In this document: in pieces, positions 54,787-64,000 of the stretch
Numbering within the stretch: position 1 is the stretch's first letter
Layout of the letters: every line of letters begins with the position of its first letter
From: Pseudomonadales bacterium
Lineage (GTDB): Bacteria; Pseudomonadota; Gammaproteobacteria; Pseudomonadales; Pseudohongiellaceae
Reading direction: 5' to 3'
NCBI GenBank assembly: GCA_022825945.1
Contig: JAJDVS010000103.1
Coordinates: 1 to 64,000, forward strand
Length of the DNA: 64,000 nucleotides
Notes under the pieces: model-generated
The model's input: the letters and a program-made list of their open reading frames with translations, nothing else
What the model was told of the DNA's origin: nothing
Databases searched by the model: none
Translations under genes and position numbers: made by a program

Positions 54787-57009
54787 GCTTCAATGAGGCC
54801 GCCGCCCGAGGGCGGCGGATATGCGACTGGGTTGCACAAATACCAACAGATTCAAGCGACGCTTCAATGAGGCCGCCGCCCGAGGGCGGCGGATATCGGT
54901 CATCAGCGGATTTGGCGAGACTCAACAACGCGCCGCTTCAATGAGGCCGCCGCCCGAGGGCGGCGGATATCTCCCTGTGCGCGTGAAACTCGACGGACGC
55001 GCCGGAGCTTCAATGAGGCCGCCGCCCGAGGGCGGCGGATATGCCTCGTGGCACGGCGTACGGCATCAAATTCCCCCTGCTTCAATGAGGCCGCCGCCCG
55101 AGGGCGGCGGATATGTGCGCTGTTTCGGGCGAATGATTGGGAAATTGTCGCTTCAATGAGGCCGCCGCCCGAGGGCGGCGGATATCTTGGAGCGCGAGTA
55201 CGGCATGCCTTTGCTTAGTGAGCTTCAATGAGGCCGCCGCCCGAGGGCGGCGGATATGGTTCAACTCGCCGAACACTACCGATTCCATTCCGAAGCTTCA
55301 ATGAGGCCGCCGCCCGAGGGCGGCGGATATAAAAAAGGAATACCTAGTAGTAAAAGACTACGGACGGCTTCAATGAGGCCGCCGCCCGAGGGCGGCGGAT
55401 ATCAGACAGGAATAATACTAAATTACCACGAATGCGTTGCTTCAATGAGGCCGCCGCCCGAGGGCGGCGGATATGCCCGTGATCGTTGACGCGTCATCGT
55501 CCTGAGTATGCTTCAATGAGGCCGCCGCCCGAGGGCGGCGGATATACCCAGCCGTCGCGAACAGATATGGGCGCACGTGGGGCTTCAATGAGGCCGCCGC
55601 CCGAGGGCGGCGGATATAAGCTGGTTGCTCGCGTTGCCGCGGTCCACCAGCGAGCTTCAATGAGGCCGCCGCCCGAGGGCGGCGGATATCATCCTCCATT
55701 TCATTGATCGCGTCCTCGATTGAGTCGTCCACCAGCGAGCTTCAATGAGGCCGCCGCCCGAGGGCGGCGGATATGCGCGACTGGCGGGCCAGAATCACCA
55801 CCTACGGGCCGGCTTCAATGAGGCCGCCGCCCGAGGGCGGCGGATATCCACGGGAACAGCGACCTACGAGATTCCGTGGACGGTGCTTCAATGAGGCCGC
55901 CGCCCGAGGGCGGCGGATATCCAGGTCAACGGACCTTTCGCGCCCTTGCTCCTGTTGCTTCAATGAGGCCGCCGCCCGAGGGCGGCGGATATTCGCGAGA
56001 ACCGTGCCCACCCCTTGCAATATGAGCTGCTTCAATGAGGCCGCCGCCCGAGGGCGGCGGATATATCCCACGGATTTGGCAACAGAATCCACGGAAGGCC
56101 AGGCTTCAATGAGGCCGCCGCCCGAGGGCGGCGGATATCGGTTGAATTTATTCCGCTTCATTGTCGGTCTCTTCGCTTCAATGAGGCCGCCGCCCGAGGG
56201 CGGCGGATATGGCGTCGTCGAAAATGGAGAGCCTGTGGCACGAACTGCTTCAATGAGGCCGCCGCCCGAGGGCGGCGGATATCAGGTCTTGGCCAACGAG
56301 GAGGGCGAGGCCGCGATCGCGCTTCAATGAGGCCGCCGCCCGAGGGCGGCGGATATCTCATAGGTCATGGGCACCCCGGCATCCAGCGCGGTGCTTCAAT
56401 GAGGCCGCCGCCCGAGGGCGGCGGATATGTGCGGATTCCGGGTCTTTCCAACGATGAGCTTCTGGCTTCAATGAGGCCGCCGCCCGAGGGCGGCGGATAT
56501 CGTGGCATCGGATGGCACCAGCACCGTGGTCCTGACGCTTCAATGAGGCCGCCGCCCGAGGGCGGCGGATATACCGTCGTGATTCCCGCGAATCTCTACA
56601 CATCGTACGTGCTTCAATGAGGCCGCCGCCCGAGGGCGGCGGATATGTGTCAACCATTTTTCTGCGTTGTTGCACTTTGCTAGCTTCAATGAGGCCGCCG
56701 CCCGAGGGCGGCGGATATTCCAACAATGGAGGATTGGATCAATGACGAATAAATGCTTCAATGAGGCCGCCGCCCGAGGGCGGCGGATATTCATGGTTTT
56801 GGCTATGGACGCATCACACGCGTATGTGCTTCAATGAGGCCGCCGCCCGAGGGCGGCGGATATATGAAATCGCCCGCGCAACGCTCGAAAGCGCGAATCT
56901 CGCTTCAATGAGGCCGCCGCCCGAGGGCGGCGGATATCGTCGTGCTGGTGGACGGCACGACATCCAAATACCTGCTTCAATGAGGCCGCCGCCCGAGGGC
57001 GGCGGATAT
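54787..57009 (-). CRISPR. CRISPR array, 31 identical 36-bp repeats, 30 spacers
   Basis: Plus-strand repeat GCTTCAATGAGGCCGCCGCCCGAGGGCGGCGGATAT; crRNA-sense repeat probably ATATCCGCCGCCCTCGGGCGGCGGCCTCATTGAAGC; spacers 35-38 nt except one of 49 nt. Confidence 0.99.
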
Positions 57010-57210
57010 GGCGCTCGCGCAAGGCGAACTGTGCCAACGGCTCCCAAGCGCGTTTGCGAGAGCCGCGAGCAATAATAGCCTGTTGACTGGTAGTGGCGCC
57101 AATCCGCCGCCGGCCAAGCGTACAACTTCATGTTTTTACGGAACATTGTGGACCACGAGCAGTTCCCGGGGTTTTCGCCGCCACTCGGCCTCTCGTCTCC
57201 GAGCGGCAGT
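57010..57210 (-). promoter_or_regulatory. Putative CRISPR leader
   Basis: About 200 bp between array and cas2; minus-strand TATTAT (57072-57077) as possible -10; polarity supported by the duplication at S12/S13. Confidence 0.5.
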
Positions 57211-57549
57211 TCAAACGATGACCACTTCCCGCTTGACCGGAGAAACGCTTTTCTTCCCCAGTGACACGATTCGCGGCTCAAGCCATTCCGCGGTTCCCAC
57301 ATCGATGATCACTATATGGTCAGCGGTATGGTGGATCAATTCATCGCAATCCGCCAGCAGTTGCGCGTAGCGCGTACTTGTCAACTGGCACTGGAACACG
57401 GAGAGTTGGACCCATTCCCCGTATCCCTGCATCATCCTGTAGATCTTGCGCCAGCGCTTGTTGTCCGCGATGTCGTAGACCACAAAATAGATTTTTTCCT
57501 GGTCTCGCAATTTCCGGTCTCCTCGTTCGATCAAGTCCCGCCCGCGCAA
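57211..57549 (-). CDS. cas2: CRISPR-associated endonuclease Cas2
   Basis: [38 protein letters not shown]. Confidence 0.95.
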
Positions 57550-57552
57550 ACG

Positions 57553-59334
57553 TCATCGTGTCAGAAAGTTGGGGTATTCCGGAATTTCGCCGAGCAGGTA
57601 GCGCGCCAGCAACCTGGCCTGCATTTCGAACAGACGGCGATACTCGACCGCATAGCCAAATAGCGGGTGAGTCACTTCCTGGTCCAGGCGGCGTTCGAAT
57701 ATGGCGATGAATCGCTTGCGGCCCTTGTCCGTCAGGTTCACTCCGACCGGAGTTTCGATGAAATCCGATCTGTCGATTTCTCCGTTATTGATCGCGGTGA
57801 TGACGGACGAATCCACTATCAGCGAGCGGAAAGGCTCCATCATGTCCAGCGCCAGCGCGGGACGGCCATAGCGCGGCTGGTGGAAGAATCCGCGAAACGG
57901 GTCGAAGCCGACCGCGGAAAGAGCGACCACGAACGAGCGGGTCAGCATGGAGTAGCCGAAGGAAAGCATGGCATTGACCGGGTCGGTCGGCGGCCGCCGG
58001 TTGCGGCCGTCCATGTTGAATTGCAATTCCGAATCGCCCGTTTGCTTGAGCATTTTGGGGAAAGCCTGGAAGTAATGCGCAGCCGCGGCGCCTTCGAGGC
58101 CGAGCAAGGATTCGATGCTCGCGGCTGTGCCGACTTCGTTCGACAATAACTTCATACTTCGCAGCGCCGGCGCCGCTCCCTCCTTGTCCGTCCAGTTTCT
58201 GCGCAGCAGCACCCGGCCGTTTCTGATCTTCGCCCGCACCCAGCCTTTCGCCAGCCGCAGGCAGGCGGCATCGTCGAAGGAGCTTCGATATTGCGCCGTT
58301 CTCAGTTCCACGTTCGAGTGTCCCGCGCCCATGGAGTGGCCGAGGAACCAGCCTCCGTAAGACTGCCAGGTTATGGGAATCTCGCGCCGCATCAACTCGT
58401 GCAAGGTCGGCGTGGTGACGTAGACATTGCCCATGAGAACCAGTTGCGACACTTCCGCGAGCCGCGCATATACCGGCTCCTCTTCATCCAGCGTGATGGC
58501 CAGCCGGTTGCCCTGCTTGGCCACTTTCGCCCGATTCGCCTGCACGTAGACCGGCAAGGCGTGCGCGCGGCGCACTGCGATGGGACGCACCTCGGCGCCG
58601 CCGGCCCGCAGCAGGTTCACCTCGTCCGGCAGGCAAATGCCTACCAGGGAGCACCGATTGCACTTGGGGCTGTTTTGCAGCGGCGGGGGAATCTGTCCGC
58701 CTTCGACCACCGAGCGCAATGCGCCTATGGATTGTTTCGTCAGCAGCCGCAGGGATTCGTCGAACGGCACCTTCACTCGCTCCCTGGAACCGGCGAAGTA
58801 CAAAATGCCCTCCGGGCAGCGATAGCCGTGTTCCTCCAGCAAGAGACCCTGGGCACAAAGCTGCACGCGCTCCGGGTCGTAGACTTTTTGCTTGATATGC
58901 GGGCGTTTGCCGCGTTTGTATTCCACCGGAACGACTTCGCCGCCGGGAGTCGGCTCGACCAGATCGATCTTCGCGACCAGGTCCAGTTTCGCGGAGGAGA
59001 GTTCGACGGAACGGGCGGGCTTGAGATCTTCCGGTTCCGTGTCCGAGTCAGGTTCAGGCAAAGGCTCGGACTTCTTGTCCACCCGCCGGTGAACGTGACG
59101 GCCTTCCACCGTGTCTTGAGAGTCGGCCCATTCCTTCTGCACCCATTCCAGATACGCCAGCCGCGGGCAGTAGACGAACTCATTGAGTATGCGCGCCGGG
59201 ATAAGCGGGCTTTCAGGGTGCTTGCCGACATCGAGCGGGAGAGAGAGTTGCAGCGGTGGGCTGTCGGACTCTTCGGTTTCACCGAGCAGGTGGTCCGGAA
59301 TGGGGCGGATCATTTCGGTGGGCATCGGCGGCAT
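57553..59334 (-). CDS. cas4-cas1: Cas4-Cas1 fusion protein
   Basis: Cas4: ILNEFVYCPRLAYLEW, VEYKRGKRP, CNRCSLVGIC; Cas1: FLGHSMGAGHSNVELRTAQY, NAMLSFGYSML, PALALDMMEPFR. Confidence 0.95.
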   Translation of the reverse strand: MPPMPTEMIRPIPDHLLGETEESDSPPLQLSLPLDVGKHPESPLIPARILNEFVYCPRLAYLEWVQKEWADSQDTVEGRHVHRRVDKKSEPLPEPDSDTEPEDLKPARSVELSSAKLDLVAKIDLVEPTPGGEVVPVEYKRGKRPHIKQKVYDPERVQLCAQGLLLEEHGYRCPEGILYFAGSRERVKVPFDESLRLLTKQSIGALRSVVEGGQIPPPLQNSPKCNRCSLVGICLPDEVNLLRAGGAEVRPIAVRRAHALPVYVQANRAKVAKQGNRLAITLDEEEPVYARLAEVSQLVLMGNVYVTTPTLHELMRREIPITWQSYGGWFLGHSMGAGHSNVELRTAQYRSSFDDAACLRLAKGWVRAKIRNGRVLLRRNWTDKEGAAPALRSMKLLSNEVGTAASIESLLGLEGAAAAHYFQAFPKMLKQTGDSELQFNMDGRNRRPPTDPVNAMLSFGYSMLTRSFVVALSAVGFDPFRGFFHQPRYGRPALALDMMEPFRSLIVDSSVITAINNGEIDRSDFIETPVGVNLTDKGRKRFIAIFERRLDQEVTHPLFGYAVEYRRLFEMQARLLARYLLGEIPEYPNFLTR

Positions 59335-59458: not shown

Positions 59459-60412
59459 TCATGCGGTGTGGCGCCGTTTTCCCAGAATCTGACGAGCGCT
59501 CTCACATAGTGAGTTGATGGAAGATACGAGATGCGCCCTGAATCCGGCGTCTTCCACGGTCTTGCCCGCCATTGGCCGGGGAATAAACCGCTGGAGCGTT
59601 TCGAGGAAACTCCGGGAGCCGATGATTTCCTCGCATCCTTCGATAGTCTTGTCCAAAGCCGCAACGTACCGATCGGCGATTTTCCGTTCGACAGCCTTGC
59701 GGGCCGACCGGGCCGCCACGTCTTCGGGAGCGACGTTCCGCCCGAGAATCCACTCGATATCCCAGGCGTCCCGATATCGGGGGTACTCGCGAGTCGCCAC
59801 CGACAAGGGGAACGCGATCAATTTGTCGCTGCAAATATCTCCGACTGACGCGGCGCGGATGGGGAATGGCGCGAATCGGTCCTGAAGCATCGCGTGGCGA
59901 TGCCGGATCGCCGGATACACGATGTCCTCCGGCGCATGTACCCGCTTGTCGATCTCGATTTTGATACGTTGCGTGCCAAGGCCCCGTGTTTTCCCGGCAG
60001 GTCGCGTAACCACTCGCGCGACCCAGCGATCCACCTCTCGCTCGCGGCGACGATCGTTCGGTTGAAATTGTCCGCGCGGTTTGACTTGAACCTCCAGTCC
60101 ATAGCCTCGTCCCAACCTTTCCCGCAGCACCGCTTCGATGTGAACGAGAAACTCGGGGCTGAAAGCCGAGCCTCCTGAAAAATGCAGGTCTTCGCTGAAC
60201 CTCGCGCCGCCGTAGCAAAGCCTGAGGCAGGTGCCGCCCTTGAAAGTCAAATGGCGCAAGATTCCCGCATCGTTCATCGCACCCAGAATTTCGAAGTGCA
60301 GAAGTTCCTTTTCGATGGCTGGGCGGCATCCCGCCAATCCCGGGTCGTCGCGGACAATATACGAAGCGACCGCCAGGAAATCAAGCATTGGCCCGTTCCT
60401 GGATTCCCGCAT
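59459..60412 (-). CDS. abiEii: AbiEii-family nucleotidyltransferase toxin (type IV TA)
   Basis: LTFKGGTCLRLCYGGARFSEDLHFSGG. Confidence 0.9.
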   Translation of the reverse strand: MRESRNGPMLDFLAVASYIVRDDPGLAGCRPAIEKELLHFEILGAMNDAGILRHLTFKGGTCLRLCYGGARFSEDLHFSGGSAFSPEFLVHIEAVLRERLGRGYGLEVQVKPRGQFQPNDRRREREVDRWVARVVTRPAGKTRGLGTQRIKIEIDKRVHAPEDIVYPAIRHRHAMLQDRFAPFPIRAASVGDICSDKLIAFPLSVATREYPRYRDAWDIEWILGRNVAPEDVAARSARKAVERKIADRYVAALDKTIEGCEEIIGSRSFLETLQRFIPRPMAGKTVEDAGFRAHLVSSINSLCESARQILGKRRHTA

Positions 60413-61181
60413 GCCATTCCGCTACGACTTCCGCGTGAATTTCTTCGTCGACAAGATGCAAATTGCCGGGACGCACCCTGCGCAAGTCATCCAGGGCAAG
60501 TTTCGGGGAAGCGACCCGCAGGCCCAGCCTTTCGTCGAAAACCGTATCGCGCAGGATTTCCAGGTCGCCTCTTCTGGTGTGCGAAAATTCAATGTCGCCG
60601 TAACGAGTCGAATATTTTCCCGCGTTGCCCGTCGTCGCAATGAGATAAACCATGGGGACCTGGCTGATCGAGCCGAATTCCGCAAGAGCCGACTCGTAAC
60701 TCAAATAGCAGAACCGGCGGGGGCGGAGGTTCCGCACGATGTCGCCAATCACCGCGAGCCCCGGGTCCGGCAGCGCCCGGTTCACGAATACGCCTCGGGC
60801 GATTCTCTCAAGCAGCCCGGCCGAGACGATTCGCCGAATGCCCGCATTGAAGGTATTGGCATCGTCGGCCTCAAACAGAAGCCGCAGGCTCTGCGTGCCA
60901 ATGACCGGGAACTGACGGCCCGGCCCCAGCACGAGCACCCGGATTGCGTCCTTCAAAGTCATCGTCTGCCGCCGCCGGAAAGCTGTTCCAGAAATATTAT
61001 TAAAAATTACTATTTTATTCCATGTGCCGCGAACACCTCCGGGAACGAAACTTGCGACACCGTTAAGTCGGGTTGGTTTTGGCCTCGCGGGCAATTTCGC
61101 CGAAGTCTTCACAGGCGGCCTGAAAGACATTGCCCACTGCCCCGCCGCTATTGTCGCAACGCCCGTAAACGGAGTCGGCAA
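60381..61181 (-). CDS. abiEi: AbiEi-family antitoxin/regulator
   Basis: YLSYESALAEFGSISQVPMVYLIATTGNAGKYSTRYGDIEFSHTRR; overlaps the toxin gene. Confidence 0.85.
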   Translation of the reverse strand: MPTPFTGVATIAAGQWAMSFRPPVKTSAKLPARPKPTRLNGVASFVPGGVRGTWNKIVIFNNISGTAFRRRQTMTLKDAIRVLVLGPGRQFPVIGTQSLRLLFEADDANTFNAGIRRIVSAGLLERIARGVFVNRALPDPGLAVIGDIVRNLRPRRFCYLSYESALAEFGSISQVPMVYLIATTGNAGKYSTRYGDIEFSHTRRGDLEILRDTVFDERLGLRVASPKLALDDLRRVRPGNLHLVDEEIHAEVVAEWHAGIQERANA

Positions 61182-61683: not shown

Positions 61684-61893
61684 ATGTCGGACAACGAGCT
61701 AACGAAGGCCATCGAACAATGGCGCAGCCTGCCGATGGAGGAACGCCGGCGCCGGCATCTGGAGGCGATTCCGCGTCATGTAGCCAACTCCATGGCGATG
61801 GAGGGCGAGCCGGTGGACGAGGAATGGCTGCGGGAACGACTCGCCCGCCGCATTCGGCAACTCGGTATATTGAAACCTCCGTCGGCATCCTGA
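61684..61893 (+). CDS. VbhA-like Fic antitoxin
   Basis: 69 aa, contains inhibitory-helix motif [S/T]xxxE[G/N] as SMAMEG; directly upstream of and overlapping fic. Confidence 0.8.
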   Translation: MSDNELTKAIEQWRSLPMEERRRRHLEAIPRHVANSMAMEGEPVDEEWLRERLARRIRQLGILKPPSAS

Positions 61894-62435
61894 GCTATCA
61901 GGAACTCGCCCCTTTGTTGGCTGAGCGAGTAGAAGATGCCGAGATCGAAATTCTGGAGAGAAAATTCACGGACGTTCCTATCTGGGAACTGCTACTGCGA
62001 CTTCATAAGCGGATTTGCGCTGATCTTATCCCGGAGATAGCCGGACGCTGGCGTCTTCGGAATGTTCAAGTGGGTTCGCATGAAGCGCCGCCGTACGAGC
62101 AGGTTCCTGTTCTGATGCACAACTACGTTGCAGACCTTGATGCGAGATTGGCAAGTCTCGCGGACGCCCGCGGCGACGAGGTTATCAACGTCCTTACATT
62201 CGCCGAAGGACAGTTGCTGCACATCCATCCGTTCGACGATTTCAACGGTCGTGTCTCGCGCCTGTTCCTCATCGAACTGCTGTACCGATTGGAACTGCCG
62301 GTGATCGACCCTGCTGCCGCTTCGAAGGAGGAAATTAGGAGCTACTTCGAAGCCTTGCAGGCATACGACCAGCGCGACCCGCGTCCGTTGGTCGAGATAT
62401 GGCGGTACCGCATAGAGCAGAGCGGTTCTCGGTGA
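61824..62435 (+). CDS. fic: Fic-family protein (toxin)
   Basis: Fic core HIHPFDDFNGRVSR; start uncertain (ORF open from 61599). Confidence 0.85.
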   Translation: MAAGTTRPPHSATRYIETSVGILSYQELAPLLAERVEDAEIEILERKFTDVPIWELLLRLHKRICADLIPEIAGRWRLRNVQVGSHEAPPYEQVPVLMHNYVADLDARLASLADARGDEVINVLTFAEGQLLHIHPFDDFNGRVSRLFLIELLYRLELPVIDPAAASKEEIRSYFEALQAYDQRDPRPLVEIWRYRIEQSGSR

Positions 62436-62465: not shown

Positions 62466-62560
62466 ACCCTTTGCAATGAGGCCGAGGCCGGCGGCCTCGG
62501 AGCGGGCTGTAGTTGGAGCGAAAGCACTTGCCTAACCGCGTCTATTCTTCAATGAGGCCA
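62466..62560 (-). ncRNA. Solitary crRNA-like element (CreR/CreA-like guide RNA candidate)
   Basis: crRNA sense: GGCCTCATTGAAGA (handle, 62559-62546) + 41-nt pseudo-spacer (62545-62505) + GCTCCGAGGCCGCCGGCCTCGGCCTCATTG hairpin repeat (about 62504-62470); stem differs from the array repeat but stays fully paired. Confidence 0.75.
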
Positions 62561-62628: not shown

Positions 62629-62656
62629 TTGACTTCCTGAATCCAGCATCCATAAT
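62629..62656 (+). promoter_or_regulatory. Sigma70-like promoter upstream of the 57-aa ORF and cas3
   Basis: TTGACT - 16 bp - CATAAT. Confidence 0.55.
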
Positions 62657-62663
62657 GCACTTT

Positions 62664-62688
62664 ATAGAAGTGGTGATGCAAGAAATTT
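62664..62688 (+). promoter_or_regulatory. Predicted partial-match target of the crRNA-like element, TTT PAM at 62661-62663
   Basis: ATAGAAGTGGTGATGCAAGAAATTT versus guide ATAGACGCGGTTAGGCAAGTGCTTT, 18/25 identical, aligned from guide position 1. Confidence 0.65.
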
Positions 62689-62706: not shown

Positions 62707-62880
62707 ATGAAGAAGCTATGCGAGTCAACCAAGATCAGTGTAACCAAAATTGAATCAGTGGTTGTCGAAATTGTGCGCACGGTATCTGCATATCGACCTC
62801 CATCGGCGGATGCACAGACCAAGGAGAAGGATGTGCTCTTGATTGACCGCTTTGATCGAGAAGGTAGTAAGCGAGGATAG
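62707..62880 (+). CDS. 57-aa ORF immediately upstream of cas3; function unknown
   Basis: MKKLCESTKISVTKIESVVVEIVRTVSAYRPPSADAQTKEKDVLLIDRFDREGSKRG; SD-like GAGAGG at 62691; stop 6 nt before cas3 ATG. Confidence 0.45.
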   Translation: MKKLCESTKISVTKIESVVVEIVRTVSAYRPPSADAQTKEKDVLLIDRFDREGSKRG

Positions 62881-62886
62881 CAGCGA

Positions 62887-64000
62887 ATGACCGCGAACTT
62901 CGACTTCGACCAGGCTTTCGTAGCGCTTACCGGGTTTCCTCCATTTCCTTGGCAGCGCCGGTTGTTCGACCACTATCTGTCCAAGGGTGCTTTGCCATCG
63001 GGGGTTGATATACCAACCGGGTTGGGCAAGACAGCGGTCATGGCGATATGGCTGTTGGCGCGTGCGAAACAAGGATTGTTGGAGCAGGCACGAAACGATT
63101 CTGTGGAGCAGGTCGGACATCAATCGCTACCACGTCGTCTGGTTTATGTGGTGGACCGACGCGCAGTTGTGGACCAGGCCACGAATTTCGCCGAAAAAAT
63201 CCGTAATCGACTTCATTCAAGCCAGCTACTCGAACCGGTGCGTCATGGACTGGGTCTAGACGATGATGGAAAGCTGCCCATCTCAACCTTGCGTGGCCGG
63301 TACATCGACAATCGGGAGTGGATGGAAGATCCAAGTGCGGCGGCAATCATAGTCGGCACCGTGGATATGATCGGTTCCCGCCTGTTGTTCGAGGGTTATG
63401 GCGTATCGAGGAAAATGAGACCGTTCGCCGCTGGGCTATTGGGGTGCGACACGTTGATGATGCTGGATGAGGCACATCTCGTGCCGCCCTTCAGGAATCT
63501 GCTCAAGGACATTGAGAGAGGCTCGAACAGTGATATTTTCGGGCCGCAAACCAAAACAGACCGAAAGGTGGTCCCGCCATTCAGGATGCTGCCACTTTCA
63601 GCGACCGGACGGGAAGATCGTGCGTCCAGTAACAGCAGCGTTTTCCAGCTTCAGCCCGAAGACTACGACAATGAAATAGTCAGTCAGCGGCTACGGGCTC
63701 CCAAGCGACTGACTATTATCGAATCGACGGAACTCGTTTCTGAGTTGGCTGAGCGGGCATGGAGTCTGGGGTCGGGCTCAAGTCCAAGGAGAGTGCTTGT
63801 TTATTGCAACAGCCGTGAGGATGCCGTCAAGGTAAAGGCCAATATCGATAAGCGATTGAATAAGCATGGCGATCATTCTGAGTTACTGGTAGGCGCGCGC
63901 CGGGTGTACGAGCGCGAAGACTTGGCCAGATGGCTTCGCGATACAGGTTTTCTCGGCGATACGGATGGGCCTCCCGAACACCCGCTATTTCTGATTGCCA
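62887..64000 (+). CDS. cas3: Type I-G (I-U) CRISPR helicase Cas3, 5' part; runs off the window (absent from ORF track)
   Basis: Open frame to end: PFPWQRRLFDHYL, DIPTGLGKTAVMAIWLLA, DEAHL, LPLSATGR, VLVYCNSREDAVKV. Confidence 0.88.
   Translation, partial: MTANFDFDQAFVALTGFPPFPWQRRLFDHYLSKGALPSGVDIPTGLGKTAVMAIWLLARAKQGLLEQARNDSVEQVGHQSLPRRLVYVVDRRAVVDQATNFAEKIRNRLHSSQLLEPVRHGLGLDDDGKLPISTLRGRYIDNREWMEDPSAAAIIVGTVDMIGSRLLFEGYGVSRKMRPFAAGLLGCDTLMMLDEAHLVPPFRNLLKDIERGSNSDIFGPQTKTDRKVVPPFRMLPLSATGREDRASSNSSVFQLQPEDYDNEIVSQRLRAPKRLTIIESTELVSELAERAWSLGSGSSPRRVLVYCNSREDAVKVKANIDKRLNKHGDHSELLVGARRVYEREDLARWLRDTGFLGDTDGPPEHPLFLIA

Follow-up and report, generated by a model that had tools for sequence, protein, structure and literature searches.

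A candidate CreR-type autoregulatory guide RNA gene upstream of cas3 in a type I-G CRISPR-Cas locus

Among the CRISPR immune systems of bacteria, type I-G is rare. In type II-A, the tracr-L single guide of Workman 2021 reportedly allows the effector to autoregulate its own expression, and the survey of CRISPR-derived RNA regulatory elements by Shmakov 2023 (NAR 51:8150) is said to cover mini-arrays with standalone repeats, whose spacers partly match cas promoters, in diverse type I systems that may include I-G. CreR mini-CRISPRs have been reported for types I-B, I-E, and V-A (PMC13131331; reviewed in PMC12737573). A CreR gene is told from a decayed array because its pseudo-spacer partly matches a cognate cas promoter beside the correct PAM. 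In CreA, the upstream pseudo-repeat (psiR1) keeps the 5' handle, and the downstream one (psiR2) keeps the part that binds Cas6 while its handle degenerates (PMC9458426). The solved I-G effector pairs with its target in a 5+1 pattern, in which every sixth base is flipped, and its crRNA has an 8-nt handle, which is left when Csb2 cuts 4 nt 3' of the repeat stem; TTN PAM use has been reported as well (PMC9638904).

The window, i.e., the whole stretch of 64,000 nucleotides that was analyzed, carries a type I-G locus that is complete when followed past the window's end (Table 1), and the element discussed here lies on its minus strand between fic and cas3. The subtype had been proposed in an earlier note on this DNA and is borne out: Cas3g, Cas8g2, Csb1/Cas7g, Csb2, and Cas4g/Cas1g all score above the cut-offs of curated models, and the locus is therefore type I-G. 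The cas3g gene is the first of cas3-cas8g2-csb1-csb2 and begins 327 bp from the element, which lies 5' of it; the array and cas2-cas4/1 are 3 to 5 kb off on the opposite strand, with 5.5 kb between the array and the element. As is expected of a CreR gene, the element is thus a solitary mini-CRISPR outside the array that adjoins the cas operon. The array repeat (ATATCCGCCGCCCTCGGGCGGCGGCCTCATTGAAGC) is present in 31 exact copies at 54.8-57.0 kb. Two neighboring array spacers (55643-55788) begin with the same 12 nt (TCGCTGGTGGAC), and one of them is 49 nt long, vs. 35-38 nt for the others.

The cas4/1 side is separated from the element by AbiEi/AbiEii, a DUF6880 protein, and a Fic protein. The fic gene (61684-62435, plus strand; core HPFDDFNGRVSR) is preceded by an overlapping ORF of 69 a.a., which has a weak match to DUF4172 and contains an SxxxEG motif (SMAMEG), as in Fic antitoxins of the VbhA type. 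The AbiEi/AbiEii toxin-antitoxin pair (59459-61181, minus strand) stands between cas4/1 and the effector operon, and in the I-G locus of Thioalkalivibrio two toxin-antitoxin systems likewise lie between csb2 and cas4-1 (PMC9638904).

Table 1. Features of the type I-G locus and of the element upstream of cas3.
Feature	Coordinates	Strand	Basis or remark
CRISPR array, 31 repeats of 36 nt, 30 spacers	54788..57010	-	
cas2	57211..57549	-	TIGR01573
cas4g/cas1g fusion	57553..59334	-	NF049935, 801 bits
Predicted mature CreR-like RNA, 76 nt	62478..62553	-	sequence and published Csb2 cleavage rule
psiR2 hairpin CCGAGGCC-GCC-GGCCTCGG, then CCTC^ATTGCAAA (degenerate handle)	62482..62500	-	
Pseudo-spacer psiS, seed ATAGACGCGGT...	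62501..62545	-	sequence
Handle ATTGAAGA	62553-62546	-	sequence
psiR1 GGCCTCATTGAAG	62547..62559	-	identical to 3' 13 nt of array repeat
Sigma-70-like promoter TTGACT-16-CATAAT for cas3	62629..62656	+	promoter search
psiS target: PAM TTT (62661-62663) and ATAGAAGTGGTGATGCAAG	62661..62682	+	15/19 to psiS
TATAAA, possible -10 of a divergent mini-CRISPR promoter, weak -35	62661..62666	-	sequence only
cas3g	62887..64000, runs on to L001:5704	+	TIGR02621, 611 bits (cut-off 400)

Read on the minus strand from 62559 to 62470, the element is GGCCTCATTGAAG-AATAGACGCGGTTAGGCAAGTGCTTTCGCTCCAACTACAGCCCGCT-CCGAGGCCGCCGGCCTCGG-CCTCATTGCAAA. The parts of a crRNA that the earlier note had described were all recovered: the identity to the 3' end of the array repeat is 13/13, a 41-nt segment starts at 62545, and the hairpin of psiR2 is followed by CCTCATTG. 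Its stem has bases unlike those of the array stem, yet it pairs perfectly over 8 bp, and the two AATGAGGCC cores are 76 bp apart, close to the array units of 71-74 bp (one of 85). The division of labor is that of CreR, as psiR1 keeps the exact CATTGAAG handle and psiR2 keeps the perfect stem and CCTCATTG. The array-type hairpin has been lost from psiR1, which could form at most a 5-bp CCAAT/ATTGG stem with a long loop; cleavage by Csb2 at psiR1 is therefore putative, and this is the weak spot of the case. When the published Csb2 rule is applied to the element, the predicted product comprises the 8-nt handle, 45 nt, the 19-nt hairpin, and CCTC. The psiR2 hairpin is shaped like an I-G repeat but consists of other bases, and its stem is close to those of other I-G arrays, such as CCTTCCGAGGC..GCCTCGGCCTCATTGAAGC (CCGAGGC..GCCTCGG) of Cereibacter; the I-G repeats recovered all share a covarying stem that is followed by CCTCATTGAAG. 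The entire 112-nt RNA does not fold with unusual stability (z = 0.17 and 0.46, not significant), and its folding energy by itself therefore says nothing in favor of the element. Of the 35 copies of CAATGAGGCCG in the 2.64-Mb genome, 31 are in the array and one is in the element; the three other sites were rejected as CRISPR units, as no CRISPR-like repeats surround them. Racr, a phage RNA anti-CRISPR that consists of a solitary repeat unit in a viral genome and is not associated with cas genes, was also considered and rejected, since two pseudo-repeats and a spacer are found here inside a cas locus.

The decisive feature, which the earlier note had not recognized, is that the pseudo-spacer psiS matches a protospacer at the cas3 promoter (62664-62682) in 15/19 bases, with mismatches at positions 6, 8, 12, and 14, of which position 8 is an extra seed mismatch besides 6. 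The match is confined to the PAM-proximal part, i.e., the first ~19 positions. A seed match to the cognate cas promoter beside a correct PAM is what distinguishes CreR; it is present here, with TTT as the PAM, and is replicated in seven other loci (see below). On the 76.5-kb contig, the best TTN site for psiS is the one at 62664 (+), and the next best reaches 12/20; when up to 3 mismatches to the guide pattern are allowed, the 2.64-Mb genome holds the guide itself and the cas3-promoter site only. Among shuffled spacers, 1/20,000 matches the cas3 upstream region as well as psiS does, a figure that is optimistic by itself because the length of 19 was chosen after the match had been seen; in the same test, 0/30 array spacers exceeded 12/19. 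The protospacer starts 8 bp after the -10 box of a sigma-70-like promoter, at about +1 of cas3. One such promoter was found in the region vs. 1.2 expected by chance, and the call is therefore weak alone. On the opposite strand, the TATAAA overlaps both the PAM and the seed of the target. Between this site and the cas3 start lies an ORF of 57 a.a. (62707-62880, plus strand; MKKLCESTKISVTKIE...), which ends 6 bp before the start and has no significant family match (HipA_C, E = 0.12).

The anatomy of the element would be able to yield a crRNA, and it could thus be a working array with a single spacer that gives immunity against a foreign element. However, the near-identical repeats of an ordinary array are not found, as the repeat stem has been replaced and psiR1 truncated, the handle-to-stem distance is 45 nt vs. 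40 in the array, and the spacer fits the cas3 promoter beside a PAM over its first ~19 positions only, as in the other seven loci; this explanation is extremely unlikely. It is also very unlikely that the element is an antitoxin guide of the CreTA/CrePA type, which would repress an adjacent toxin (fic, AbiEii) and so penalize cells that lose the effector. Both a Fic protein and the pair AbiEi/AbiEii do adjoin the element, but apart from the cas3 promoter no TTN site on the 76.5-kb contig exceeds 12/20 and none elsewhere in the genome is within 3 mismatches; no adjacent toxin promoter is targeted as it is in CreTA and CrePA, and fic is convergent with the element. Of the CreR/CreA-type guide envisaged in the earlier note, the CreR-like half stands, with a psiS that matches the cas3 promoter beside a PAM and recurrence in seven other loci, and the CreA/CreP-like half falls, with no fic or other toxin promoter matched.

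The same two-part unit also precedes cas genes in further I-G genomes. When the Cas3 model for I-G and the Cas3 protein served as queries, 51 I-G loci were collected. With arrays masked, positions 1-5 and 7-11 after a CATTGAAG handle had to recur beside TTN within 1.5 kb, with at most 1 seed mismatch. Such a site was found for 8/45 solitary handles, vs. 4/2308 with 273 permuted handles as the control. When the PAM condition was dropped, 9 sites were found, of which 8 have TTN; the ninth is inside a coding region. Five handle variants of one mismatch each gave 3 matches, none with a TTN PAM. The eight loci (the window, G239, G557, G697, G769, G1013, G1022, and G1258) have mutually unrelated pseudo-spacers, each of which fits its own cas promoter region. 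The targets lie upstream of cas3, or of csb1-csb2-cas3 in G769 and G1022 (genes read by eye); that of G1013 is apparently the cas4/1 promoter (gene identified by eye). In G557, G697, and G769, the element is downstream of the target on the operon strand, in the presumed 5' leader, with the spacer 69-82 nt off. The elements of the window, G239, and G1022 are divergent, with 69-119 nt to the target. Across the set, the handle is preserved in psiR1; in psiR2, the stem and CCTCATTG are preserved and AAGC is usually gone. A psiR2 hairpin is missing from G1013 and G1258, whose spacers are instead inside long inverted repeats (fold z of -5.5 and -4.8).

The eight loci are scattered on the Cas3 tree, requiring 8 changes, so such elements are gained and lost or originate again and again; only about one I-G locus in six has one. 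Order searches around two of the hit genomes gave no further loci. A genus/family search for conservation of the window's element returned no related DNA and only weak Cas3 matches (at most 129 bits, 41% identity); no close relative with sequence across the region was found, and the nearest Cas3 (G970) is at a contig end.

Several observations were made in passing. At L116:10300-10460 and L129:1930-2080 (cas3 = +), a handle, a spacer, and a matching promoter occur without a psiR2 hairpin, and the spacers of these guide-like elements are enclosed by long inverted repeats (GCTGCTCGAG/CTCGAGCAGC and GTGGCTGAGG/CCTCGGCCAC). A well-formed two-repeat mini-CRISPR lies about 100 bp 5' of cas3 in G732 (L093); no TTN-flanked partner was found for it in the locus, and its target may be elsewhere or lost. 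In G571 (L094), two CCTCATTGAA motifs, the first with a full repeat stem, are 45 bp apart at 973-1029 bp past the cas3 start. In the I-G locus of Cereibacter plasmids, a WYL regulator precedes cas3, and a search for a mini-CRISPR found none.

Over the eight loci, the numbers of matches at positions 1-16 are 8, 8, 7, 8, 8, 2, 8, 7, 7, 8, 8, 1, 8, 6, 8, and 5. Matching thus runs through positions 1-5, 7-11, and 13-15, fades after about 18, and is at chance level past 20. Positions 6 and 12 are mismatched in 13/16 cells, vs. 8/112 at the other positions from 1 to 16; for position 12 against 13-16, which were outside the seed filter, p = 0.0003. Judged by sequence, this periodicity reproduces the 5+1 pairing seen in the solved I-G effector; selection for binding by that effector would explain it, and it would be hard to explain otherwise.

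These data also bear on two simpler origins. The element could be all that is left, without function, of another CRISPR array 5' of cas3, with a promoter match due to chance, as it is a single unit with a hairpinless psiR1 and with repeats that have diverged from the array repeat. This is very unlikely, however, as exactly the parts that are needed persist (the psiR1 handle and the perfect psiR2 stem), the cas3-promoter match is unique in the genome, and seven other loci repeat the pattern with unrelated spacers and the 5+1 periodicity. Alternatively, the hairpin, which is 47 bp past the fic stop codon, might act in the DNA as operator inverted repeats, or as a fic terminator, with no RNA guide. 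This reading is scarcely credible: no T-run follows the stem and no terminator was called, and it leaves the handle identity, the PAM, and the mismatches at 6 and 12 unexplained. The distribution of CAATGAGGCCG, the same two-part unit elsewhere in I-G, and the unique match of psiS to the cas3 promoter make the element more than a chance arrangement. It very probably encodes a CreR-type autoregulatory crRNA, an autorepressor of the I-G cas genes.

Most likely, such a guide would let the I-G system turn its own production down. Csb2 would cleave a minus-strand transcript at psiR2 and also in or close to psiR1, where the 5' end could be trimmed by Csb2 itself, acting on the weak stem, or by some other nuclease. 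The product would be a short RNA with the I-G handle (ATTGAAGA), the pseudo-spacer, and the 3' repeat hairpin. Together with Csb1/Cas7g, Csb2, and Cas8g, it could form a complex that is guided to the TTN-flanked site at the cas3 transcription start, where the first 15-19 bases would pair, save bases 6 and 12, which would be flipped, and two more mismatches. Partial pairing of this kind may suffice for stable binding and for steric repression of the cas3-cas8-csb1-csb2 operon, and, by analogy with CreA and CreR, would not extend far enough to set off Cas3. Ordinary crRNAs, for which the array here has 30 spacers, are proposed to compete for the effector, and plentiful crRNA or a blocked effector would therefore raise cas expression. 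Transcription, processing, binding, repression, and competition are steps that we infer; repression through the effector, crRNA competition, and relief by Acr are likewise suggested by analogy.

Taken jointly, the eight loci raise the possibility, advanced here tentatively, that I-G systems repeatedly and independently evolve autorepressor guides, in either orientation, against the cas3, csb1, or apparently cas4/1 promoter, often ~70 nt off. Some (G1013, G1258), with a long inverted repeat in place of psiR2, would imply another route of maturation; the target in the window may overlap the promoters of both cas3 and the guide, closing a double feedback loop; and the set might be new for I-G.

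RNA-guided cas autorepression would thereby be extended to the least studied type I subtype, with unrelated bacteria of the same subtype carrying equivalents whose guides differ and are equally well matched. Each of the eight genomes offers a guide and promoter pair that is directly testable, and together they give a natural record of the positions that need to pair (1-5, 7-11, and 13-15, not 6 or 12). Type I-G has no cas11 gene, and its crRNA handle is contacted only by Cas7.1 (PMC9638904), so partial R-loops that repress without licensing Cas3 would inform I-G target recognition. Before genome editing with I-G systems, the host should be checked for a guide of its own that already occupies the effector.

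Among the known systems, tracr-L shares with the element the use of a guide RNA for effector autoregulation, but it takes the form of a tracrRNA with Cas9 and not of a crRNA-like mini-array. The mini-arrays that Shmakov 2023 is said to describe are alike in having a standalone-repeat unit with a spacer that partly matches a cas promoter. No description of an I-G CreR was found in the literature searched, whose reach did not extend to the two main surveys (Shmakov 2023 and Liu 2023, on CreR). CreA of CreTA (PMC9458426, PMC8501985) has the same psiR1/psiR2 decay pattern and a partial promoter match, but it targets a toxin promoter, whereas the element targets that of cas3. With CreR of types I-B, I-E, and V-A, the element shares a solitary degenerate mini-CRISPR by the cas genes, a pseudo-spacer with partial complementarity to the promoter of the cognate cas genes, and proposed repression by the effector; it differs in being of type I-G, with a Csb2/Cas8g effector and no cas11 gene, the ATTGAAGN handle, and a TTN PAM. 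CreR is thus a kind already known from types I-B, I-E, and V-A, to which the candidate I-G case would add.
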